NCBI GenBank assembly: GCA_009773455.1
Contig: WSXU01000009.1
Coordinates: 124,001-188,000 of the forward strand
Direction of reading: 5' to 3'
DNA length: 64,000 nt
DNA from: Bacteroidota bacterium
Lineage (GTDB): Bacteria > Bacteroidota > Bacteroidia > Bacteroidales > Lentimicrobiaceae
Positions 52,669-64,000 of the stretch are shown here, piece after piece. Numbering within the stretch: the first letter of the stretch is position 1; each line of letters begins with the position of its first letter. Made by a program: the position numbers and the translations under genes. The notes beneath the pieces were generated by a model. The model did not search any database. It was not told the origin of the DNA and saw nothing but the letters and a program-made list of their open reading frames with translations.

Positions 52669-53058
52669 TTATCCGATCTCAGCTGTCACGGTCATGGCCG
52701 GTGGAGTGTGTAAATGGCGTTTAACTGCGCAAAGGTTCGCTGCATTGATCACAGCATCCTTATACTTTTCAGGAAATGATGAAGGCAGAAAAATACGGAT
52801 GTCGATGTTTGTAATCATATGGGTAGCCGGATCAAATTTCATATCCTGCTCCAGGTGGATACCTTCAGTCGGAATATTGCGCTGATCGCAGAAAGACCTG
52901 ACGAATATTCCGGCACAAGTGCCTAGCGATGCCAGAAAAAGATCAAACGGGGCAGGTGCCGAACCTTCACCTCCTACCCTTTCAGGTTGATCGGTTACTA
53001 TACGATGACCGTTGAATTCGGCGATTACTTTCTTTTTGCCTTCAAATGTGATTTTCAT
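52669..53058 (-). CDS. OsmC-family protein
   Basis: A 129-residue OsmC/Ohr-fold protein, a thiol-dependent peroxide reductase fold. The two conserved redox cysteines are Cys48 (LGTCAG) and Cys110 (AANLCAVKRHL). The typical APAPFDLFLASLG lead-in is present. It belongs to the YhfA/OsmC-like branch rather than clear Ohr. The substrate is unknown. It precedes the hydrogenase island but on the opposite side of a 109-base gap from the SpoIIE gene; it may share its transcript. Confidence 0.88.
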   Translation of the reverse strand: MKITFEGKKKVIAEFNGHRIVTDQPERVGGEGSAPAPFDLFLASLGTCAGIFVRSFCDQRNIPTEGIHLEQDMKFDPATHMITNIDIRIFLPSSFPEKYKDAVINAANLCAVKRHLHTPPAMTVTAEIG

Positions 53059-53167: not shown

Positions 53168-54349
53168 CTATATAAAGGTAACCTTAACCTCTTTCAGAAA
53201 TTTCTCCTCAAGCAGACGGGCGATTCGTTTAACCACCGTACGCCTGATTTCAAGCTCTACCGGAAGGCTCGGATCCTGGTGTGCAATGTTGATCCTGGTG
53301 CCGATGATAAAATGTATTTCATCGCTTTCAATCAGCATCTTTACAATTCTGTCGGCAGGACCTTTGGTCAGTCGGGTACTGTTATTGTATGTCTTGAGAA
53401 TTTCCGTAACCTTTCCCAGGGTAAGAATCCCCTCGGTTACAAGATCGATGCCATCCATCATCGAAATGGGCGGCAGATCCGGATCGTCAAAATCGAAGGA
53501 ATCCTCAATATGCCTGTTCAGTTCCCTTGAGATGATATCGGCTGTAGTTGCCCCGCAGACAATCTTCCTGCCTTCAAATTCTTCAACAATTTTAGCCAGT
53601 TTGCTGTCGTTGTGATCCTCGAAAGGGGGTCCTGTACACACCAGCATTCGCCTTGGATTTCTGAAATATATCACCCCGCAGCTTGTATCATCCTTCGACA
53701 GATAACCATCATTCACATGGGCAAGGTTCACCACCTTATGGGATAGCTGGAGTGCTGAAATCTCCGGTTCATGGTTAACCAGTTCAGACACATACTGGGC
53801 TACATTGTCGCGGCCCCAGCCAAACAGGTATTTCCCACCGAGACCGGATTGGGCAACTCCATCGCTGAAAAAGACGATCCTGTCTTCCTTTTCAGGTGTA
53901 AACTCACAACTCTTCAGCTCTTTCCCGGCATTTTTCTCACCGCTGAGCATTACACATGTCCATTCGGGTTCATAAATCTCGGTGCCACGCATAATAACAG
54001 CCTGCGGGTTGTCATATTCAAGTATCCTTACCTTTCCGTCAAATTCAATATCTATGATCGTAAAGGTTGAATAACTCATTTTACGTTCACTGCACACCGG
54101 AAGGGTATTCATAATGATTTCGGCGATGCGGTTGACCTCCTTATGTTCCAGTGTGAAATTCAGGGCCATTGTAGCAGTAAGGGTTGCAAGCATGTTTGCT
54201 TTCACACCGTGACCCATTCCATCCGACAGGACGGCTATAATCCTGTTCTCTTCATTGATTCGTCTCGATAGAAAAACATCGCCACAAATCCTTGATTCAT
54301 GATGAAATTTTAATTCCGCGTTAACTTCGATGTAAAACCTGTTATCCAT
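53168..54349 (-). CDS. SpoIIE-type serine phosphatase of the hydrogenase island
   Basis: A 393-residue PP2C-like (SpoIIE/RsbU) phosphatase. Metal-binding aspartates are in LSDGMGHG (Asp43), FFSDGVAQ and SKDDTSCG. The phosphatase domain spans about 15-235, and a conserved C-terminal domain of about 150 residues of unknown function follows. No membrane helix is present. It starts 8 bases after the PAS-linked hydrogenase-like sensor, so it is its likely output. Phosphatases of this kind accompany group C [FeFe] hydrogenase sensors in other anaerobes. The target, an anti-sigma antagonist or similar, is not in the window. Confidence 0.88.
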   Translation of the reverse strand: MDNRFYIEVNAELKFHHESRICGDVFLSRRINEENRIIAVLSDGMGHGVKANMLATLTATMALNFTLEHKEVNRIAEIIMNTLPVCSERKMSYSTFTIIDIEFDGKVRILEYDNPQAVIMRGTEIYEPEWTCVMLSGEKNAGKELKSCEFTPEKEDRIVFFSDGVAQSGLGGKYLFGWGRDNVAQYVSELVNHEPEISALQLSHKVVNLAHVNDGYLSKDDTSCGVIYFRNPRRMLVCTGPPFEDHNDSKLAKIVEEFEGRKIVCGATTADIISRELNRHIEDSFDFDDPDLPPISMMDGIDLVTEGILTLGKVTEILKTYNNSTRLTKGPADRIVKMLIESDEIHFIIGTRINIAHQDPSLPVELEIRRTVVKRIARLLEEKFLKEVKVTFI

Positions 54350-54357
54350 CGGATCAT

Positions 54358-56220
54358 CTACTTTTTGCCTGCCTTATGGGATTCAATGATGGAATTGAGC
54401 ATTCGTTCCGTTTTTGCGGCTCCTTCGCCCAAAAGGAAAGCTATTTTCTGCACCAGGTCGAGGTTTTCATCAATCACTTCGGTTACCCTGTTGATTACTT
54501 CCTCCTTTCTTACTTCAGGAAGATACATATCGCGCAGCACAGCACCGGCTATTTTGCCTTTTTTGATTGAGAAAACTGAAACATTGAGTAGCTTATCACC
54601 CAGATGAACATCCTTGTTCACCAGGTTCTCATTGTTGGATATTACAGCAGAAAAGAGTTTATAGAACTGGAACGGAAGCAGGGTTTTTATGTCGGCACCC
54701 ACTAGACCGGGAATAATTTCATTGACTTCAGCAGCATCTTCACCGAGTATATTGATAAAGCTCTGGTTCGATTCAATCACTTTCAGATTTGCATCAACAA
54801 TCACGATGGCGCTGGGAAGTTTCTGGAGCATGGTTGAGGTACGCTCGAGTGCTTCCTGAGCCAGTTGCTGCTCATGACGCGCCTTCTTTTCCGATTCCAT
54901 CAGAGCATCCTGTGTGCGGCCGAGTTTTTCGTTTGTAAGCTTCAGTGTCTTGATAAAGTCGTGCTTACTTCTCAGTGAGTACGTAATGCACATGTCGGTC
55001 TTAGTCAATCCCTGTGCCACTGCCTTGGCAAAATCGCGGCAGGATTCGTAACCGCAGGCTCCGCATCCCAGTTTGTCTTCAGTATTTATTTTACCAATGA
55101 CTTTGAGGATTTCTTCCGTTTTCTCTTCGGAAGGCAGAGGCAACCGCTGATCATCCGTCTCAATCACAGCCCTGAAATCCGTCATGGAAACATGTTTCTT
55201 ACAGGCTTTCTGCCATGTCTTCACATCAAAGTTCTTCAGCTTTTTATTGGCGTAATCGGTAACAAGTGTTTTCCGGGCATATTTTTTCCCTCCGTGGGAA
55301 GTGCCGGGCCCCATCAGGCAGCCTTCGCAGTAAAACAGGTTAAAATGCTTGCGGATAAAGTCGATGGAAGATTCAAATTCACGGATGGATTCCAGTACAT
55401 TTTCCTTGCCTTCGGCGGTGATGATGCTTCCCTGCATCAGGTCCTCACTCAGGTTGGCAGCCTGCAGTATTCCATTGCTGATTGAATAGAGAGATCCCTT
55501 ATATCCGAGTGGCGGATCAAAATCAGAATATTCAACTGTACTTTCCTTAATCCCCATTTCATTAAAAAGCCTGCGCAACTCAACAAAGGTCAATACAGCA
55601 TCCACCCTTGAGTTGCCTTCATATCTGAGCGCCTCATCCTTGGCCCCAATGCAGGGACCGATATACACAACCTTTACCTCATTACCATACAATTGGCGCG
55701 AAAGCTGTGCCGAGGCAATCATGGGTGTAATCACCGGAGCCAGATTGTCGATGATCTCCGGATGGAATTTTTCAATCAAAGAGATCACCGGCGGACAATT
55801 CGCAGTAATGTAATATCTGCCCATGAAGTTTGTAAACAGATCGTGATACTGTTCAGCGACCATATCCACACCAAAGGAAGCTTCGTTCACATAGGCAAAC
55901 CCAAGTTCCCTGATCATCCTGACAAATTTGCGGTAATCGGTAATGTCATCAAACTCACCCGAAATGCTTGGGGCAACAATCGCAACAACTTTTTCACCGG
56001 ACGAAAGAATGGCCTTTGTTTCTTCACAACCATCGCGGTATTCAATGGCAAGGGGGGCGCAAACCTGAAGGCAGGAGCCACAGCCGATACACCTGTCGTG
56101 AATCACTACAGGTGCTTCCATATTTGACCTGACCTGAATTGCATTCACAGGGCAGGCCCTGACGCATGCAAAGCAGATCTTGCATTTTTCAGAATCAATT
56201 GTGATGAGTGGAGGTTTCAT
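54358..56220 (-). CDS. PAS-linked [FeFe] hydrogenase-like sensory protein
   Basis: A 620-residue putative H2 or redox sensor. Order: two 4Fe-4S motifs (Cys13-Cys24 and Cys44-Cys54 regions), an H-domain (about 75-320), a further iron-sulfur motif CGACGYESC with Cys411, a coiled coil (425-465), a PAS domain (about 465-570) and a helical tail. In the H-domain Cys142 (TANCPP) and Cys190 (GPCIGAK) align with H-cluster ligands. The third loop reads YCEGC, with Tyr297 where the first Cys of CxxxC belongs, and Ala193 stands at the usual Lys. It therefore may not hold a normal H-cluster. It is in an operon with the SpoIIE phosphatase downstream. Confidence 0.88.
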   Translation of the reverse strand: MKPPLITIDSEKCKICFACVRACPVNAIQVRSNMEAPVVIHDRCIGCGSCLQVCAPLAIEYRDGCEETKAILSSGEKVVAIVAPSISGEFDDITDYRKFVRMIRELGFAYVNEASFGVDMVAEQYHDLFTNFMGRYYITANCPPVISLIEKFHPEIIDNLAPVITPMIASAQLSRQLYGNEVKVVYIGPCIGAKDEALRYEGNSRVDAVLTFVELRRLFNEMGIKESTVEYSDFDPPLGYKGSLYSISNGILQAANLSEDLMQGSIITAEGKENVLESIREFESSIDFIRKHFNLFYCEGCLMGPGTSHGGKKYARKTLVTDYANKKLKNFDVKTWQKACKKHVSMTDFRAVIETDDQRLPLPSEEKTEEILKVIGKINTEDKLGCGACGYESCRDFAKAVAQGLTKTDMCITYSLRSKHDFIKTLKLTNEKLGRTQDALMESEKKARHEQQLAQEALERTSTMLQKLPSAIVIVDANLKVIESNQSFINILGEDAAEVNEIIPGLVGADIKTLLPFQFYKLFSAVISNNENLVNKDVHLGDKLLNVSVFSIKKGKIAGAVLRDMYLPEVRKEEVINRVTEVIDENLDLVQKIAFLLGEGAAKTERMLNSIIESHKAGKK

Positions 56221-56400
56221 CGTTCCGTTTCTTAAGACTCCGGTGTTGCTTTATTGCAGATTCCGGAATCTGAATGAATCAATCAGAATGGCTGATCAAT
56301 CAGAATATCATCAGAAATTAAAAATCCATTTTCATTTTGTTGAATGCTTCCAGTAAATTCAGGGAATATCTGTTCTCAAGAAACAGATTATAGCGTTGGA
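56221..56400 (-). other. Gap between the [2Fe-2S] gene and the PAS-linked sensor gene
   Basis: A 180-base gap within the presumed operon. It has the palindrome GATTCCGGAATC and two copies of ATCAATCAGAAT about 18 bases apart. A 29-codon stretch without a standard start codon (56318-56407, minus strand) reads like protein but is too short to call. Confidence 0.35.
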
Positions 56401-56664
56401 TCAAAGAACAGATGACACCGGCCCAAAAATTTCGTTCAGTATCATCCTCACCCTTTCCTCATTCAGCTGCTGATATTCCCTGCCATCAATACTCATGAGC
56501 GGCCCCTTATCACAACTGCTGAAACAATGTGCCCCGTGAAAGTGAACAAGGTGCCTCAGGTTATTCTCATTCAGGTATTGCTCAATAACCCTGACCAGTA
56601 CCTTATTCCCCCTGGAGAAACAGGAACTACCCAGACAAATCTGAATATCAACTTTTTGCTCCAT
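56401..56664 (-). CDS. Thioredoxin-like [2Fe-2S] ferredoxin
   Basis: An 87-residue electron carrier of the NuoE/HydC C-terminal type. Four cysteines are arranged as CLGSSC and CFSSC, the [2Fe-2S] pattern. ATG 56664 is chosen; the upstream frame to 56706 opens with a TTG. It lies first in the minus-strand operon with the PAS-linked sensor and the SpoIIE phosphatase, so it may pass electrons to the sensor. A minus-strand TATTTTTG at 56766-56773 is a possible promoter. A similar small protein occurs near the hydrogenase genes of Thermotoga maritima, as I recall. Confidence 0.87.
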   Translation of the reverse strand: MEQKVDIQICLGSSCFSRGNKVLVRVIEQYLNENNLRHLVHFHGAHCFSSCDKGPLMSIDGREYQQLNEERVRMILNEIFGPVSSVL

Positions 56665-56919
56665 TTCAATCTTCGACTTTGGTTGCCATTCATTTATCCT
56701 CTTCAAACCAGCAAAACCTGAGCGGAATCGTCAATGGTTCCGGCTCATCCCTTATTCAGACAGAACAAAAATAGTATTTTTTGATAAAAATATCTGTTAA
56801 AGGAATAACATTGTTATAAAAATAACAGTAATTTTATCAGCGATTTTCTTCACCGGATAAATCCGGCAATCGTTTTTGCAAAGATAGTATTACTTTAAAA
56901 CACTGAACCTGCGCTATTC

Positions 56920-57384
56920 ATGTCAGATAAAATAGATGAGATCATAAAAAACCATATGAATGTTCAGCGCGACAGTCTGTTACCACTGTTGCAGGAAATT
57001 CAGAATGAGCTGGGTTATCTTTCGGAAGAATCGATCAACCGCATCGGACGGTCGCTGAATCTGCCCACGAGTAAAATTTATGGTGTGGCTACTTTTTATG
57101 ATCAGTTCCGTTTTGAGCCCAAAGGAACTTTTCACTTTCGCATCTGCCACGGAACTGCCTGCCATATTGAGAAATCTGCCAGGATCATTCAGGAAGCTGA
57201 AAGGCTCCTCAAAATCAGGCAGGGGCAGACCACCCGCGATGGTATGTTCAGCATTGAAGTGGTCAACTGTATGGGAGCCTGTGGGTTGTCACCTGTGATA
57301 TCAGTCAATGAAAAATATTATCATGGGATTCAACCCCGTGATTTAAAAGAGATCATTGAAACCTGCAAAGCAAAAACCGTTTAA
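56920..57384 (+). CDS. hydC: [FeFe] hydrogenase subunit HydC (NuoE-like)
   Basis: The [2Fe-2S] subunit of a trimeric NAD-linked [FeFe] hydrogenase, 154 residues. A helical N-terminal domain (IQNELGYLSEESI) is followed by a thioredoxin-like fold with cluster cysteines in ICHGTACH and NCMGACGLSP, the NuoE pattern. It is the first gene of the plus-strand operon; hydB starts one base after its stop. The order hydC-hydB-hydA matches known electron-bifurcating hydrogenases. Confidence 0.93.
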   Translation: MSDKIDEIIKNHMNVQRDSLLPLLQEIQNELGYLSEESINRIGRSLNLPTSKIYGVATFYDQFRFEPKGTFHFRICHGTACHIEKSARIIQEAERLLKIRQGQTTRDGMFSIEVVNCMGACGLSPVISVNEKYYHGIQPRDLKEIIETCKAKTV

Positions 57385-57385
57385 C

Positions 57386-59332
57386 ATGACTGTGTCGAAC
57401 CCTTATACAACTGTCAGGCTCAGGGACATCCTGCTGTTGAATCAGCAACCGGAAAATGCTGAGGCTTTTGAAGAGTATCTGAGTCTGCTGAAACGTGATG
57501 CTGTTGAGCGACCTGTTATTTTTGTAGGAACCGGTACCTGCGGAATGATTGCTGGTGCAGGTGAAACCCTTCAGGCAATCAGAACCTACCTTGATGAAAA
57601 GGAAATTGAAGCCGAAGTTGTTGAAGTAGGTTGTATTGGTTTTTGCGTTCATGAGCCGCTTGTAGATGTTCAGCTTCCCGGGAAGAGGCGTATTTCATTC
57701 TCAAAGATTACCCGGGCAAAAGTAGAACCTTTGCTGGACGATATACTGAATACAGTTGTACCTGATGAAAACGTTCTTGGTCAGTATTCCCATCCGCATC
57801 ATGAAGCATGGGACAATGTACGCCTGTTAGGCGAAATGCCGTTCTTCAGACTTCAAAACCGGCTCGTCCTCAGAAATTGCGGCATTGTCAATCCATTCTC
57901 TATTGAAGAATTTATTGTTCGTGGCGGTTATAAATCACTGACCCGCGTTTTACGCAATTACTCATCCGATAAAGTCTGTGAAATCATAGAAGACAGCGGT
58001 CTCAGGGGCCGTGGCGGTGGTGGTTTTCCGACCGGTAAAAAGTGGAAAACGGCATTGAACACCCCGGGCGACGAAAGGTTTATGATCTGTAACGGCGATG
58101 AAAGTGATCCGGGCGCATTTATGGATCGTTCGCTGTTTGAAGGCGATCCACATAAAATCATCGAAGGCGTTGCCATTGCAGCTTATGCGATCAATGCACG
58201 TAAAGCATACATCTATGTAAGGGCTGAATACACCCTTGCGGTTGAGCGACTAAGGCTGGCCATTCAACAGGCTACAGATGCCGGACTGCTGGGTCATAAC
58301 ATCCTTAACAGCGGTTACAGCCTGACGATACAGGTTCGCGAAGGCGCAGGCGCATTTGTCTGCGGTGAAGAAACCGCGCTGATCTCCAGTATTGAAGGCA
58401 AACGTGGCACACCCAGGCCAAAACCACCATTCCCCGCATCCCGGGGTCTTTTTGGCAAACCTACCGTTGTAAACAATGTGGAAACACTCGCCAATATTCC
58501 TGCAATAATGGAACACGGCCCGGCATGGTTTGCAGGCATCGGAACCAGTTCAAGCAAAGGGACGAAGGTATTTGCCCTGGCAGGAAAGATAAATACAACC
58601 GGACTGATTGAAGTGACCATGGGTACTTCGCTCAAAGACCTTATTTATCACATTGCCGGCGGCATCAGGGATGGGAAGCAGATCAAAGCCGTTCAGCTGG
58701 GCGGCCCCTCAGGCAGTTGTTTACCGGAACAAAGCCTCGACGTTAAAATTGATTATGAAGCCCTGGTTGAAGCCGGAACGATCATGGGATCGGGTGGACT
58801 GGTGGTGATGGATGAAGACACCTGTATGGTGGATATTGCCAGTTTCTTTACCGACTTTCTGCAGCGCGAAAGCTGCGGCAAGTGTATTCCATGCCGTGAA
58901 GGATCGAGACGAATGCATGAGATACTGGAAAACATCACCCGGCGTCCGGTAAATGAAACAGGACATGAAACACTTGAACGGTTCAAGGGTGTGATGCAAC
59001 TGGGCAATCTGGCAGAGGTTATCAGGGATACCTCATTGTGTGGTCTGGGGCAGACGGCACCAAATCCCCTGATCAGCGCCCTCAAATACTTCAGGGAGGA
59101 ATTCGAGGAACATATTTTTGACCGTAAATGCAGGGCCGGGGTGTGCAAAGACCTGAAGGTTTACTACATTGATATTGAAAAGTGCAACGGCTGCACTGTC
59201 TGTGCAAAAAAATGCCCGACTACAGCCATCATCGGATCACCGCGCAATCCTCATTTTATCATTGAAGATAAATGTACCGGTTGTGGTATCTGCTATGATG
59301 TATGCAAATTTGTTGCTGTATTTGTCAGATAA
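57386..59332 (+). CDS. hydB: [FeFe] hydrogenase subunit HydB (NuoF-like, FMN/NADH)
   Basis: The flavin and NAD(H)-binding subunit, 648 residues, where electron bifurcation or confurcation is thought to occur. Order: an N-terminal thioredoxin-like domain (Cys52, Cys83, Cys87), the NuoF domain with NAD/FMN motifs GLRGRGGGGFPTGKKW and NGDESDPGAFMDR, an SLBB domain, the 4Fe-4S motif CGKCIPCREG, and two C-terminal ferredoxin motifs (CNGCTVCAKKCP and CTGCGICYDVC). The extra C-terminal clusters separate HydB from complex I NuoF. ATG 57386 is chosen; an upstream TTG would overlap hydC. hydA follows after 24 bases. Confidence 0.94.
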   Translation: MTVSNPYTTVRLRDILLLNQQPENAEAFEEYLSLLKRDAVERPVIFVGTGTCGMIAGAGETLQAIRTYLDEKEIEAEVVEVGCIGFCVHEPLVDVQLPGKRRISFSKITRAKVEPLLDDILNTVVPDENVLGQYSHPHHEAWDNVRLLGEMPFFRLQNRLVLRNCGIVNPFSIEEFIVRGGYKSLTRVLRNYSSDKVCEIIEDSGLRGRGGGGFPTGKKWKTALNTPGDERFMICNGDESDPGAFMDRSLFEGDPHKIIEGVAIAAYAINARKAYIYVRAEYTLAVERLRLAIQQATDAGLLGHNILNSGYSLTIQVREGAGAFVCGEETALISSIEGKRGTPRPKPPFPASRGLFGKPTVVNNVETLANIPAIMEHGPAWFAGIGTSSSKGTKVFALAGKINTTGLIEVTMGTSLKDLIYHIAGGIRDGKQIKAVQLGGPSGSCLPEQSLDVKIDYEALVEAGTIMGSGGLVVMDEDTCMVDIASFFTDFLQRESCGKCIPCREGSRRMHEILENITRRPVNETGHETLERFKGVMQLGNLAEVIRDTSLCGLGQTAPNPLISALKYFREEFEEHIFDRKCRAGVCKDLKVYYIDIEKCNGCTVCAKKCPTTAIIGSPRNPHFIIEDKCTGCGICYDVCKFVAVFVR

Positions 59333-59356
59333 TCTCAAAGTCAAAGAAGCCAGAAC

Positions 59357-61081
59357 ATGAACTTCCCGATAGAAGTAAACAATAAAACCATTACGGCCCG
59401 CAAAGGTGAAACCATCCTGGATGCACTGGAGCGGAATGGCATCAAGGTACCAACGCTTTGCCATATGCCGGGGCTCTACCCTACCGGATCATGCAGAATG
59501 TGTGTGGTAGAGGTGGAAGGCAAGAGTAACCTGATCACAGCCTGCTCGTACCCTGTGGAAGAATGGATGAAGATAAAAACACATTCTCCCAGGGTTGTAA
59601 ATGCCCGAAAAACCAACGTGGAACTACTGCTGAGTAATCACCCGGATGATTGTCTTTTTTGTGAGCGAAACGGCAACTGTGAACTGCAGAAATTTGCCGA
59701 GGATCTGAATGTCAGGGAACGCAGATTCCCGGGTAAAAAGAATAAGTATAAAGCCGACCCTTCAGGATCCAGTATCGTGAGAGATCCGGCAAAGTGCATT
59801 TTATGCGGCAGGTGTGTCAGAACCTGCGACGAGATTGTCGGGGCAGTGACACTGGGGTTTATCGGCAGGGGTAACAAAACCATTATTGGCCCTCCGTTCA
59901 ATAAACAGATCAACCTCTCAAGCTGCATCACCTGCGGTCAGTGTGTCATGGCCTGTCCGACCGGAGCATTGCATGAAAAAAGACATTCGTCCGATCTTCA
60001 GAATGCACTTCACAACCCTGACCTCCATGTTGTGTTGCAATACTCCCCAACGGTTACAGTAAGTGTGGGAGAGGAATTCGGACTGAAAGCCGGGAAAGAC
60101 ATGACCGGAATACTGAATGCTGCACTGAGAAAGACCGGGTTTGATAAAGTATTTGATTCTTCGTTCGGTGCTGATCTTTACATTACTGAACTTGCAGCTG
60201 AAGTTGAACAACGGTTAAAAACAGGGGAAAATATTCCTGTTTTCAGCAGCGATTGCCCTGCCTGGGTAAAATATACCGAACAGTGGTATCCCGAAATTCT
60301 GCCGAACCTTTCGGCATGTAAGTCGCCTCAGCAAATGCTTGGCTCTGTTATAAGCAGTTATTACACTGACCTATTTCATATAAATCCGGATAATCTGTAT
60401 ACAGTTTCGGCCATGCCCTGCACTGCCAAGAAATTTGAGGCTCAGCGTGAGCAGATGACCCACAAAGGCATTACCGATGTGGATGCTGTGCTGACTACCC
60501 GGGAACTGGCACAGTTTATCAGGCTGAATGGCATAGACATAGAACAGATTGAAAACGAACTGGCCGATAACCCCTTTCATGTAAGGAGTTCAGCAGGAAG
60601 GCTGCTGAGCGTATCAGGCGGTGTTACAGAAGCTTTAATCCGCACTTTGCATTACAGGCTGACCGGCAAGGATATGACTCAGCCTAAGATCAGTGAATTA
60701 CGGAATGGTCGTGAATACAAAGAGGTAAAGATGAAAATCGGCGATTTTAAACTTGGTTTTGCCGCAGTTAGTACGGTGAGGCAGGCTGCCAGGCTGATCG
60801 GTGAAATTAAGGCAGGACGCAATGATCTTCATTTTATTGAAGTAATGGCATGCCCTGGAGGATGTGTTAACGGAGGTGGCCAGCCCATTGCCTGCGATAC
60901 AGGAGCAATCAGGGCAAGGATCAAGACTGTTTACGAAATTGATGAAAAGGACCCCATCAGGTTTGCACACAAGAATCCGGCTGTACTTGAATTGTACCGT
61001 GATTTCCTGGGTGAGCCCATGGGTGCCAGATCCGTTGAGTTGCTGCACACTTCCTATAAAAAGCGGGAAGTTCCATTGTAA
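59357..61081 (+). CDS. hydA: [FeFe] hydrogenase catalytic subunit HydA with altered proton path
   Basis: The H2-forming/oxidising subunit, 574 residues. An N-terminal [2Fe-2S] plant-type ferredoxin domain (Cys35, 46, 49, 63), the His-less Cys-rich NuoG-type motif (about 99-108), and two 4Fe-4S clusters (CILCGRCVRTC, CITCGQCVMAC) precede the H-domain. H-cluster ligands are Cys300, Cys355 (MPCTAKK), Cys499 and Cys503 (ACPGGC), numbers that match C. pasteurianum CpI. The usual TSCCP reads SSDCP, so Asp299 replaces the proton-donor Cys, and Leu279 stands where CpI has Glu279. Glu282, Arg286 and Ser319 are kept. Maturases HydEFG are not in the window. Confidence 0.94.
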   Translation: MNFPIEVNNKTITARKGETILDALERNGIKVPTLCHMPGLYPTGSCRMCVVEVEGKSNLITACSYPVEEWMKIKTHSPRVVNARKTNVELLLSNHPDDCLFCERNGNCELQKFAEDLNVRERRFPGKKNKYKADPSGSSIVRDPAKCILCGRCVRTCDEIVGAVTLGFIGRGNKTIIGPPFNKQINLSSCITCGQCVMACPTGALHEKRHSSDLQNALHNPDLHVVLQYSPTVTVSVGEEFGLKAGKDMTGILNAALRKTGFDKVFDSSFGADLYITELAAEVEQRLKTGENIPVFSSDCPAWVKYTEQWYPEILPNLSACKSPQQMLGSVISSYYTDLFHINPDNLYTVSAMPCTAKKFEAQREQMTHKGITDVDAVLTTRELAQFIRLNGIDIEQIENELADNPFHVRSSAGRLLSVSGGVTEALIRTLHYRLTGKDMTQPKISELRNGREYKEVKMKIGDFKLGFAAVSTVRQAARLIGEIKAGRNDLHFIEVMACPGGCVNGGGQPIACDTGAIRARIKTVYEIDEKDPIRFAHKNPAVLELYRDFLGEPMGARSVELLHTSYKKREVPL

Positions 61082-61100
61082 AGGGTAAAACTTATATATC

Positions 61101-63119
61101 ATGGAGCCGGAAAAGTACAGAATCAAAAAGCAACTGGTCAGCACTGTCAAGGAACGGTGCCGTGTTTGCTATACCTGTGTGAGGGAATGTCCGGCCAAAG
61201 CCATCAAAATAAGTAATGGTCAGGCTGAAGTCATTCCGGAGAGGTGCATAGGTTGCGGCAACTGCATCAAAGTATGCAGCCAGAATGCCAAGTTATTCCG
61301 CAAAGAGACCGATATTGTAAGTATGCTTACCGGTGGCGGCTATGAGTGTGCAGCCATTGTTGCGCCAAGTTTTCCTGCTGAGTTTTCGGAAATAAAGAAC
61401 CACCGGCTATTGGTTTCTTTGATCAGATCGCTCGGATTTACCTATGTTTCGGAGGTTGCATTTGGTGCTGACCTTGTATCGGAAGAATACAAGAAATTGC
61501 TGAAAGCCGGCAACTATCCCCCTGTGATCTCCTCGGATTGTCCGGCCATTGTCAGCTACATAGAGCATTACCATCCCGATCTGGTTGACTCACTTGCACA
61601 TGTTGTATCACCCATGGTAGCCATGGGTAAGGTGATGCGTAAGCGTTACGGCGAAGACCTGAAAATTGTTTTCATCGGACCCTGCATTGCCAAGAAAGAT
61701 GAATCAGACGAAATAGATGCAGCACTAACCTTTCGTGAGTTGCGCGAAATGATTGCCAAAACCGGACTTAAACCAGCCGATGTTACCCCCAGTGAATTCG
61801 ATCCGCCTTTGAGCGGAAAAGGAGCCATCTTCCCCGTGAGCCGGGGATTACTGAATACTGTCGGGGTAAAAGAAGACATCTTTGAGCGGAATGTGATTGT
61901 GGCTGAAGGCCGCTCGGATTTCCAGGAAGCCATCAAGGAATTTGAAAGCGGACAAATAGCCCAGGAGCACCTTGAGCTGCTTTGCTGTGAAGGTTGCATC
62001 ATGGGGCCAGGAATGTCGCCGTACCCGTTTTTTTCTTCCAGCAGCCGCCGGTACCGTAAGCAGGCCAGTGTAAGTGACTATGTCATCAATAAACTGGAAA
62101 CCCTCGACCTCGCACAATGGAAAAAAGATATTGAAGAATTCAGGAGTATTGATCTTTTCAGGGAATTCATGAAAAGGGATATCAGGGTAGCGCGGCCTGC
62201 CGATGGAGAGATTACCAAAGTATTGAACAGGATGGGGAAATTTGATCCTCAGGACCACCTTGACTGCGGGGCCTGTGGTTATGATTCCTGCCAGGACCAT
62301 GCCATTGCCATTATCAGGGGGCTTGCCGAACATGAAATGTGTCTCCCATACGCGATGGAGAAACTTCACAATTACATCCGTGAACTCAATATATCGAACG
62401 AGAAGCTCGCCAATACCCAGGAAGCTTTGAAGCAATCGGAGAAGCTTGCTGGTCTTGGGCAACTTTCGGCCGGAATAGCCCATGAGTTGAACAACCCACT
62501 GGGTGTTATAACCATGTACAGCAATATCCTGAAGGATGAAGCACCTTCGGAAGATCCAATAAGGAAAGACCTTGAGCTTATTGTTGAACAGGCTGAAAGG
62601 TGCAAAAAAATTGTGGGCGGATTGTTGAATTTCGCCAGGAAGAACCAGGTAAATTTCACCGATGTGAACATCAACAATCTTGTTGAACACTGCATCAGTT
62701 CAGTTATAGCACCTGTAAATGTCAGAATATCCCTTGAATCGAACATTAAGAATGCCGAGGCCCACCTTGACTATGACCAGATGGCCCAGGTATTTACCAA
62801 CCTGCTTAAAAACGCGGTTGAGGCAATGCCTGAAATTGGCGGGAGTATTCATATAAGAGTTACCGACTCAGCAGATGAAATCACTGTTTACATAGCCGAC
62901 TCGGGAACAGGTATCGCCAAGGAAAACATGGGCAAGCTTTTCACACCTTTTTTCACAACCAAGGCTATTGGAAAAGGAACCGGACTGGGATTGCCCATCA
63001 TATACGGAATTGTCAAAATGCACAAGGGAAGCATTTCGGTCAAATCGAACGCAGACCACACAAAAGGGCCCACGGGAACTACTTTTACAATCACATTCCC
63101 AAGACGGCCGATAACCTGA
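61101..63119 (+). CDS. [FeFe] hydrogenase-like sensor histidine kinase
   Basis: A 672-residue fusion of an H-domain sensor with a kinase. Two 4Fe-4S motifs (Cys20-Cys30 and Cys49-Cys59) precede the H-domain (about 80-330). Putative H-cluster ligands are Cys147 (SSDCPA), Cys195 (GPCIAKK, with the conserved Lys198), Cys295 and Cys299 (CCEGC). Then come CGACGYDSC with Cys414, a coiled coil (425-450), HisKA with His461 (IAHELNNPLG) and an HATPase domain (LLKNAVEAMP, DSGTGI, GTGLGLPI). It corresponds to kinase-linked group C sensory hydrogenases. It has no transmembrane helix. It sits 19 bases after hydA and just before two response regulators, so it likely reports H2 or redox state to them. Confidence 0.92.
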   Translation: MEPEKYRIKKQLVSTVKERCRVCYTCVRECPAKAIKISNGQAEVIPERCIGCGNCIKVCSQNAKLFRKETDIVSMLTGGGYECAAIVAPSFPAEFSEIKNHRLLVSLIRSLGFTYVSEVAFGADLVSEEYKKLLKAGNYPPVISSDCPAIVSYIEHYHPDLVDSLAHVVSPMVAMGKVMRKRYGEDLKIVFIGPCIAKKDESDEIDAALTFRELREMIAKTGLKPADVTPSEFDPPLSGKGAIFPVSRGLLNTVGVKEDIFERNVIVAEGRSDFQEAIKEFESGQIAQEHLELLCCEGCIMGPGMSPYPFFSSSSRRYRKQASVSDYVINKLETLDLAQWKKDIEEFRSIDLFREFMKRDIRVARPADGEITKVLNRMGKFDPQDHLDCGACGYDSCQDHAIAIIRGLAEHEMCLPYAMEKLHNYIRELNISNEKLANTQEALKQSEKLAGLGQLSAGIAHELNNPLGVITMYSNILKDEAPSEDPIRKDLELIVEQAERCKKIVGGLLNFARKNQVNFTDVNINNLVEHCISSVIAPVNVRISLESNIKNAEAHLDYDQMAQVFTNLLKNAVEAMPEIGGSIHIRVTDSADEITVYIADSGTGIAKENMGKLFTPFFTTKAIGKGTGLGLPIIYGIVKMHKGSISVKSNADHTKGPTGTTFTITFPRRPIT

Positions 63120-63188
63120 TATTCAGGCACATAACAGTACTTAAAAACTATACCAAAAGCCACAGAGCAGAATAAAGAAAGAAAGAAA

Positions 63189-63575
63189 ATGAAAAAAACA
63201 GTATTGATTGTTGATGACGACATGGATTATCTGTTTCAGATGAAAATCAAGGTTGAGCAGTTTGGATTTGAAACCATTACTGCTGACGGACAAAAGGAAG
63301 CTGAGATGATCATCGAGACCACCAGGCCCGACCTGGCCATCCTTGACCTGATGATGGAAAATGACGACAGCGGGTTTATTCTGGCCTATAAAATAAAACG
63401 AAAGTATCCTGATGTACCCATCATCATTGCAACGGCGGTTACTGCAGAAACAGGTATGACATTCGATATAAACTCAGATGAGAACAAACAATGGATCAAG
63501 GCAGACCTCTTTCTCGACAAGGGAATCAGAGCCGACCAGTTGTTAAAGGAAATCAACAAATTGCTTAAGATCTGA
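63189..63575 (+). CDS. Single-domain response regulator
   Basis: A 128-residue receiver. The acidic pocket is VDDD near the N-terminus, and the phospho-acceptor Asp lies in LAILDLMMEND. A loop of about ten extra residues (around NSDENKQW) follows beta 4. No output domain is present. It lies between the hydrogenase-like kinase and the second regulator (2-base gap), so it is probably a phosphate sink or relay in the same circuit. Confidence 0.9.
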   Translation: MKKTVLIVDDDMDYLFQMKIKVEQFGFETITADGQKEAEMIIETTRPDLAILDLMMENDDSGFILAYKIKRKYPDVPIIIATAVTAETGMTFDINSDENKQWIKADLFLDKGIRADQLLKEINKLLKI

Positions 63576-63577
63576 TC

Positions 63578-64000
63578 ATGGCTGAATACAAGATTCTGGT
63601 GGTAGATGATGAGCCAGGCATCCGGATGGGTACAAAACGTATCCTTCAAAATTACAAGGTTGATTATCCATTCATGGATGAGCACATTGAATTCATTGTG
63701 CTTGAAGCTGCTACCGGTGAAGAGGGTATTGAAATTATTGACCGTGAGATGCCGGACATCATACTGCTTGATAACAAACTTCCCGGCATACAGGGTGTTG
63801 AGGTACTTGAGTATGTAAAAAAGAAGCTTTATGATATTGTTGTCGTTATGATCACTTCCTATGCTTCGCTTGAGCTTGCTGTTAAAGCGACCCGGGACGG
63901 AGCTTATGATTTTATTCCAAAGCCTTTTACCCCCCAGGAACTCCGTGGATCGATCGAGAACATCACCAAGCAGCTCTTTCTGAAAAGGATGACCCAGAAG
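63578..64000 (+). CDS. Response regulator, NtrC/AtoC-like receiver (partial, runs off window)
   Basis: The ATG at 63578 opens a frame that stays open to the last base (141 codons seen). It has a full receiver domain: ILVVDDEPGI at the start, the phospho-acceptor Asp in IILLDNKLPG, the Thr/Ser switch in VMITSYAS, and Lys in FIPKPFTP. The spacing KPFTPQELRGSIENI is typical of NtrC-family receivers, so a sigma-54 AAA+ and DNA-binding domain may follow beyond the window; this cannot be seen. A kinase or other output is possible. It would be the DNA-level output of the H2-sensing kinase. Confidence 0.82.
   Translation, partial: MAEYKILVVDDEPGIRMGTKRILQNYKVDYPFMDEHIEFIVLEAATGEEGIEIIDREMPDIILLDNKLPGIQGVEVLEYVKKKLYDIVVVMITSYASLELAVKATRDGAYDFIPKPFTPQELRGSIENITKQLFLKRMTQK

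Follow-up and report, generated by a model that had tools for sequence, protein, structure and literature searches.

What do two different hydrogenase-like sensors do around one trimeric [FeFe] hydrogenase? The question is raised by a window of 64,000 nucleotides (the whole stretch of DNA that was analysed; contig WSXU01000009.1, positions 124,001 to 188,000, from a Bacteroidota bacterium of the Lentimicrobiaceae), in which the genes of the enzyme, HydABC, lie between two such sensors. In a first-pass annotation they had been read as a two-branch H2 or redox circuit, with a phosphorelay and a partner switch controlling the same enzyme. The present analysis favours, with a probability of roughly 0.6, a conserved island with three inputs, namely the repressor Rex and two group-C-like sensors, around a retuned HydABC of the bifurcating type. 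Rex-containing dual-sensor island is thus a more apt name for the locus than phosphorelay with partner switch. Its parts are known and their arrangement is new, and the change around the active site of the enzyme was unexpected.

Organization of the island

Three proteins with an H-domain (PF02906) were found close together between positions 54358 and 63119. Six matches were obtained in the whole genome, and the remaining three are on contig C68. The minus strand encodes a SpoIIE phosphatase, the sensor HydSP and a small 2Fe-2S protein, and the plus strand hydC-hydB-hydA, the sensor HydSK, a receiver and a second kinase. Each strand would form one operon. The features are listed below (aa, amino acids).

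53168..54349, minus strand: SpoIIE-family (PP2C-type) protein phosphatase (PF07228, 2.4e-12), with about 150 additional aa at the C-terminus that match no Pfam family
54358..56220, minus strand: HydSP, group-C-like sensor with two [4Fe-4S] motifs, H-domain, FeS domain and PAS-like domain (PF02906, 4.4e-40; PF04060; trees; weak PAS matches; topology of the AlphaFold2 model)
56401..56706, minus strand: small thioredoxin-like [2Fe-2S] protein of the sensor operon (PF01257, 1.8e-10), start codon uncertain
56811..56828, no strand: Rex-operator-like palindrome in the divergent intergenic region, one mismatch to TTGTTA-N6-TAACAA
56920..57384, plus strand: HydC, [2Fe-2S] subunit (PF01257, 2.9e-47)
57386..59332, plus strand: HydB, FMN/NADH and Fe-S subunit (PF01512, PF10589, Fer4; NuoF family); the open frame begins at 57356 and the ATG at 57386 is a guess
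59357..61081, plus strand: HydA, H-domain subunit of group A; CpI positions 299 and 279 are occupied by D and L, respectively (TIGR02512, CpI alignment)
61101..63119, plus strand: HydSK, group-C-like sensor with two [4Fe-4S] motifs, H-domain, FeS, HisKA and HATPase domains
63189..63575, plus strand: RR1, CheY-like single-domain receiver (PF00072, 6.4e-14)
63578..64000, plus strand: RHK, start of a 376-aa REC-HisKA-HATPase kinase with 708 bases more beyond the window (L007:579-1709)
L007:1723-2346, beyond the window: Rex-type repressor gene, 13 bp after RHK (PF06971 and PF02629)

The clustering of the three H-domain proteins, the hydABC trimer with its divergent strands, the histidine kinase fused to one H-domain protein (HisKA/HATPase on HydSK) and the SpoIIE phosphatase next to another, starting 8 bp later, all agree with the first-pass annotation. 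It had also placed two response regulators after HydSK. One stands as a lone receiver; the other runs past the window, and on reading further it was rejected as a response regulator and identified as the REC-HisKA-HATPase kinase RHK.

Conservation of the dual-sensor layout

All 19 genomes of the genus carry H-domain proteins. Both sensors flanked hydCBA on one contig in 14 of them (hand count), and the layout is broken by contig ends in four (G010, G013, G017 and G018). The remaining genome, G008 (83% complete), is without the island, its three H-domain matches being of the C68 type. A survey of named loci covered the best 80 of 511 relatives, from Bacteroidota groups, and 52 loci with HydC and at least 4.5 kb upstream could be scored. 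Divergent HydSP and SpoIIE genes were present in 42 of these (L081, L082 and L084 being genus loci too) and neither in 10. L081-L085 duplicate L023, L027, L029, L018 and L030; they were left out of the trees and the HydA counts and are still counted in the named-locus tallies and in the uncorrected tally of Rex sites.

Among 295 sampled genomes of the order, 134 gave a HydS match at 1e-60, and in at least 35, from 20 families, the two sensors were divergent with 4.4-5.0 kb between the matches. HydS was matched in 4 of 395 genomes of a class-wide sample, and in a phylum-wide sample the N-terminal region of the kinase sensor gave matches at 1e-25 in 33 of 395. The second sensor was found in none of 26 kinase-type phylum loci (L046-L071) within the stretch fetched, and five separate phylum loci (L072-L075 and L080) had the order Rex-HydCBA-HydS-SpoIIE. 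On the HydB tree the dual-sensor layout appears as one change.

Two contrary outcomes had been named beforehand: a tree with both flanking proteins outside group C, and a joint arrangement without conservation in relatives. Neither was found, since the tree described below places both sensors with HydS and the joint layout is conserved. The gene order, which recurs in the genus, in the named relatives and in the order, is more than chance. We found no account of a single hydABC flanked by both sensor types in the parts of the literature available to us (here and below, cited papers are represented by such excerpts). A possible precedent is a figure legend on the surroundings of [NiFe]- and [FeFe]-hydrogenases in which nuoE, phoR and spoIIE are named (PMC7325909).

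Rex and the operator-like site

Of 40 dual-sensor loci, 38 have a Rex gene downstream, versus none of 8 loci without the phosphatase arm. The protein encoded after RHK exceeded the cut-offs of both PF06971 and PF02629 (DNA-binding and CoA/NAD-binding Rossmann domains), a pair that we take to be the mark of Rex. A Ruminococcus albus gene annotated as Rex matches the same pair.

The palindrome TTGTTA-N6-TAACAA, with at most one mismatch and no more than 400 bp upstream of hydC, was found in 47 of 60 dual-sensor loci, or 43 of 56 once four duplicates had been taken out by hand, versus about 0.36 expected from dinucleotide shuffles. It was absent from all 34 loci that lack both a full HydSP and Rex; among these is L156, a dual-sensor locus truncated by its contig end. 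Ten loci have Rex but not a full HydSP, and five of these carry the site: L090, L101 and L138 are dual-sensor loci cut by contig ends, and L086 and L153 were left undecided. The five classic phosphatase clusters are without it. The pattern is close to the consensus TTGTGAANNNNTTCACAA (PMC6391272), and Rex would be expected to bind there.

Of 22 operator-like places in the genome, 14 were inspected. Three sites lie in or just before the hydrogenase cluster on C68 and two by an aminotransferase/NAD-epimerase pair; others were found by nqrA, an operon with a DUF2764 gene (read as a V-type ATPase operon), a 2-oxoacid dehydrogenase E1 gene and a molybdopterin oxidoreductase. Such positions beside redox genes are suggestive.

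The two H-domain sensors

HydSK and HydSP are 39% identical over 443 aligned positions. Each has a pair of N-terminal [4Fe-4S] motifs, four cysteines presumed to belong to the H-cluster, Gly in the place of M353 and a C-terminal Cx2Cx4Cx16C motif, which is given for the M2e and M2f subclasses (PMC8163306). The four cluster cysteines are kept in 87 of 87 HydSK relatives. In HydSP relatives three are kept in 59 of 59, and the fourth is Cys in 47, as in the window, and Asn or Asp in 12 (L105, L115, L117, L122, L124, L125, L130, L134, L149, L150, L151 and L154). At the position of CpI C299, Asp was found in 86 of 87 island-type HydSK and Asn in 46 of 59 HydSP, and the two window sensors have these same residues. 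In the phylum sample, kinase sensors in which the motif was found carry Ala, Pro or Ser there. HydSK is split over two open frames in L071 and L140, by assembly error or as a broken gene.

The PAS domain ascribed to HydSP is a tentative assignment. PF00989 gave 19.7 bits, below the Pfam cut-off of 22.6, and the 50 listed Protein Data Bank (PDB) matches of the AlphaFold2 model were all hydrogenases or hydrogenase subunits, with no PAS among them; residues 471-564 of the model display a PAS-like order of strands and helices.

In a quick tree with references, HydSK and HydSP fell into one large group (Shimodaira-Hasegawa-like approximate likelihood ratio test, SH-aLRT, 95; long branches flagged) with the HydS proteins of R. 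albus, Monoglobus and Acetoanaerobium. The group was apart from group A HydA and from the 478-483-aa H-domain proteins in the records of R. albus and Monoglobus. The tree took its references from three plasmid-collection records and from Bacteroidota loci rather than HydDB, and the thinned sets comprised 95 of 203 rows, then 78 rows, then 68 rows. The sensor on R. albus pRUMAL01 is, we assume, the HydS of Zheng et al. 2014. By this placement both flanking proteins are group-C-like sensors, as had been proposed, and sensing of H2 is predicted. Free trees paired HydSP with the island HydSK (SH-aLRT 99 and 100). Approximately unbiased (AU) tests rejected neither the union of all kinase-type sensors (p 0.28) nor that of HydSP with the classic PAS type (p 0.25). 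One sensor may have arisen as a duplicate of the other within the island, a reading that the free trees favour.

The island may also be explained by accretion, with two HydS modules that also occur alone having settled by one hydABC and regulating hydrogenase genes generally, not jointly. We regard this as unlikely. HydCBA-HydSK-RR-RHK and Rex-HydCBA-HydS-SpoIIE clusters do lie apart from each other in the four phylum genomes from which both types were retrieved (G174, G206, G367 and G371), and R. albus, Monoglobus and the genus member G001 have the small 2Fe-2S/HydS/SpoIIE set next to other H-domain genes. However, order and spacing are kept over 20 families together with a shared operator-like site, which is more than a passive neighbourhood would be expected to keep, and the free trees join HydSP with the island HydSK, although the AU tests leave room for alternatives.

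HydABC and its altered proton path

HydA, HydB (FMN/NADH, Fe-S) and HydC are encoded together, as in group A3 HydABC, and a bifurcating-type enzyme with electron bifurcation between NADH and ferredoxin is predicted. HydA scored 422.6 bits against TIGR02512 (cut-off 405.95) and 707.7 bits against NF040763 for group A6, which is under the cut-off of 765. Its numbering coincides with that of CpI at 300, 353 and 497. The canonical group A proton path (C299, E279, E282, R286, S319) is incomplete: D299 occupies the place of the proton-shuttle Cys and L279 that of the Glu, with E282, R286 and S319 present. Both replacements occur in 14 of 14 rows of the window genus. With these replacements, the label of HydA as catalytic in the first-pass annotation has to be qualified.

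In CpI, the E279A/Q and C299A/S variants have less than 1% activity left, and Cys-to-Asp variants of CpI and HydA1 keep 30-80% (PMC6226526). In CaHydA, Asp was the only replacement of this Cys with high activity (PMC3485046). From the proton-path changes and these mutant activities, the window HydA is predicted to be a slow or re-biased enzyme with its cluster ligands kept.

The comparison was extended to other clusters, eight being set aside for too little DNA upstream of HydC and those without full HydA and HydB (L117 and L129, for example) being unused. Clusters that lack the phosphatase arm, 27 in number, all have E279, C299, M353, K358 and F417. In 51 full-length dual-sensor HydAs these residues are kept in 7, 25 (Asp in 16), 37, 38 and 20, respectively, and the four H-cluster cysteines in all 51. 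Other clusters have 21 invariant HydA cysteines; 19 of these are present in every one of the 51, and the two that are not are 299 (25) and 321 (23). HydB has 19 such cysteines, 16 of them kept in 51 of 51; the exceptions, 175 (34), 336 (49) and 455 (27), were not taken for cluster ligands. The four of this kind in HydC are present in 50 of 50. In L117 and L129 the HydA gene runs over two frames, either an assembly error or a broken gene.

In dual-sensor pairs the H-domain of HydA diverges more than HydB, its own N-domain and the H-domain of HydSK. In other clusters it is slightly ahead of its N-domain, and the HydSK H-domain diverges more than that of HydA. Columns invariant elsewhere are kept at 77% in the HydA H-domain, 92% in its N-domain, 83% in HydB, 77% in HydC and 98% in the HydSK H-domain, so that HydC has moved as far as the H-domain of HydA. 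On the HydB tree four changes were counted at E279, five at C299 and seven at K358. A statistical link between layout and HydA residue loss was sought and given up, as the tree offers a single independent contrast.

Decay, in which the dual-sensor HydA is redundant and heading to loss and the sensors are kept for the other cluster, is a doubtful explanation of these data. It would fit the fast H-domain, which reverses the order seen in other clusters and is further ahead of its own N-domain, the repeated changes at C299 and K358, the split HydA of dual-sensor L117 and L129, and the canonical HydABC encoded on C68. Against it stand the H-cluster cysteines, without a loss in 51 sequences, and the uniform Asp of the window genus, the very residue that left CaHydA highly active (PMC3485046).

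Phosphatase arm and phosphorelay

The AlphaFold2 model of the phosphatase (predicted local distance difference test, pLDDT, 86) had PP2C/SpoIIE/RsbX/RsbU-type phosphatases as its best PDB matches. Residues D24, D43, D163, D220 and D221, presumably the metal-binding acids, are invariant in 31 aligned sequences. The C-terminal part of about 150 aa (window 53168-53720) is conserved, with no Pfam match under 0.001, and the phosphatase partners in R. albus and Monoglobus are similar in total length (389 aa). Similar small 2Fe-2S genes precede HydS in both records.

SpoIIE-type phosphatases elsewhere target STAS proteins. The island's own phosphatase is the one SpoIIE match of the genome, and no stand-alone STAS antagonist was found by PF01740 in this 95.4% complete genome, the sole match being inside a SulP sulfate transporter. 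STAS matches were obtained in 14 of 19 genus genomes, all 15 of them in open frames of 414-611 codons, and none in the other five; G012 and G018 (96% complete) have the HydSP/SpoIIE arm and no STAS match. The SpoIIE/STAS partner switch was therefore rejected, as no stand-alone STAS was found in the genome or genus searches. Of the phosphorelay, a kinase and a receiver are present, but the island has no DNA-binding response regulator, and the sole Pfam DNA-binding domain there is that of Rex. The gene order and the shared promoter region suggest that both branches act on the same enzyme.

The circuit as first drawn, a phosphorelay plus a SpoIIE/STAS/anti-sigma partner switch on one ordinary catalytic HydABC, is improbable: both sensor-linked arms exist around hydABC and are conserved, and the phosphatase resembles SpoIIE, RsbX and RsbU-type structures whose kin act on STAS, but the only STAS match is in SulP, five genus genomes have none at all, the HydA proton path is altered and Rex adds a third input.

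Comparison with known systems

The HydS-SpoIIE module on R. albus 7 pRUMAL01 resembles the island in having Rex upstream, small 2Fe-2S proteins, H-domain sensor and SpoIIE, in that order, and a sensor that ends in Cx2Cx4Cx16C. It differs in that the stretch shown, between adhE and a 478-aa H-domain gene, is without hydABC or a kinase-linked sensor. In the genus member G001, a second small-2Fe-2S/HydS/SpoIIE module (L035, G001:C1:1721000-1737000) stands beside a 491-aa H-domain gene, in a layout like those of R. albus and Monoglobus.

In the BfuABCT/BfuTABC clusters of Hydrogenedentota (sub-types IV and V) an A3 bifurcating hydrogenase is accompanied by a group C3 sensor that carries PAS or histidine kinase; the text available describes one sensor type per cluster, where the island has both together with a second kinase and Rex (PMC11406978). 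TmHydS of Thermotoga maritima, also of group C, has H-domain and PAS, Gly for M353, no Cys at 299 and an operon shared with another hydrogenase gene. It has Ala at 299, unlike the Asn and Asp of the window sensors, and a second sensor is not mentioned in the excerpts (PMC10055695, PMC8163306). In Thermoanaerobacter a kinase and a sensory-type (group D-like) H-domain gene lie beside a bifurcating hydrogenase, with the histidine kinase upstream; kinase and H-domain are separate proteins, however, and the PAS-type sensor is at a separate locus (PMC3608648). In Caldicellulosiruptor bescii, Rex represses the [FeFe]-hydrogenase structural genes, hydG and itself, and the passages available describe no dual-sensor island (PMC6391272).

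Other hydrogenase clusters and neighbouring genes

The second hydrogenase cluster of the genome, on C68 (L008, G000:C68:140000-159500), has two HydA genes, one canonical and the other carrying Ser instead of C300. It also encodes a 182-aa HATPase protein and an H-domain protein of 458 aa that includes an FeS domain; Rex-like sites stand before and inside the cluster. A sister cluster type without the phosphatase arm was observed in L095, L103, L121, L127, L128, L137, L141-L145 and L160. Its hydC is preceded by a gene for a receiver-like protein of about 164-189 aa, its HydA residues are canonical, and a Rex gene was found downstream in none of the scorable loci.

After Rex, the same contig encodes RibF, a metallo-beta-lactamase-fold protein and a radical-SAM/BATS protein, the last read as HydG. 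A 138-aa protein in the stretch beyond the window gave no Pfam match and is, we assume, TM1266-like. On the other side, an OsmC-like gene (52669-53058) follows the phosphatase operon, as in many genus loci.

Proposed working of the island

The Rex-containing dual-sensor island may work as follows. Two divergent operons would share one promoter region with the Rex-operator-like site, the first comprising HydCBA, the group-C-like sensor kinase, the receiver, the second kinase and Rex, and the second the small 2Fe-2S protein, the group-C-like H-domain/PAS sensor and the SpoIIE-type phosphatase. At a high NADH/NAD+ ratio Rex would let the operons open. The kinase sensor would read H2 or the redox state and feed the phosphorelay, and the PAS sensor would set the Ser/Thr phosphatase on a protein other than a STAS partner. 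The island HydA is probably slow or re-biased, and ordinary turnover would be left to the second cluster on C68.

Several observations weigh against this proposal. The operator pattern was refined after palindromes had been seen in the same regions. Genome-wide, it occurs at 22 places versus 59 for the reversed control, so that the number of sites alone means nothing and a genome-wide excess of Rex-like sites was discarded; 4 of the 14 places inspected (L185-L187 and L190) are inside frames or without evident redox genes. A presumed cluster cysteine is altered in 12 of 59 HydSP, so that a normal H-cluster need not be present in every one of them, and H2 sensing by group C proteins has been termed putative (PMC8924675). 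As to the enzyme, C299 is retained in 25 of 51 dual-sensor HydAs, in five of them together with E279, M353 and K358, and the invariant columns of HydC are kept no better than those of the HydA H-domain. The layout arose once on the HydB tree, which gives no independent pairs for its putative link with HydA residue loss.

A further step is conceivable, though we hold it to be rather improbable: the island HydABC would have been turned into a slow H2/redox reporter or valve wired to NADH and ferredoxin, the three H-cluster proteins and Rex forming one sensory device and bulk H2 turnover falling to another hydrogenase of the cell. If so, the shift would show in the enzyme as a group-A HydA that naturally has Asp for the proton-shuttle Cys and lacks E279. 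Whatever its role, this Asp is a natural variant of a change known from mutagenesis in the papers cited (PMC6226526, PMC3485046). The dual-sensor HydAs offer a natural group A series, with constant cluster ligands and a variable proton path, in which the role of that path could be tested. The locus also bears on how [FeFe]-hydrogenase-like sensors pass on their signal: since a kinase-linked sensor, a phosphatase-linked sensor, Rex and the enzyme stand in one small conserved locus, their inputs could be separated by single deletions.

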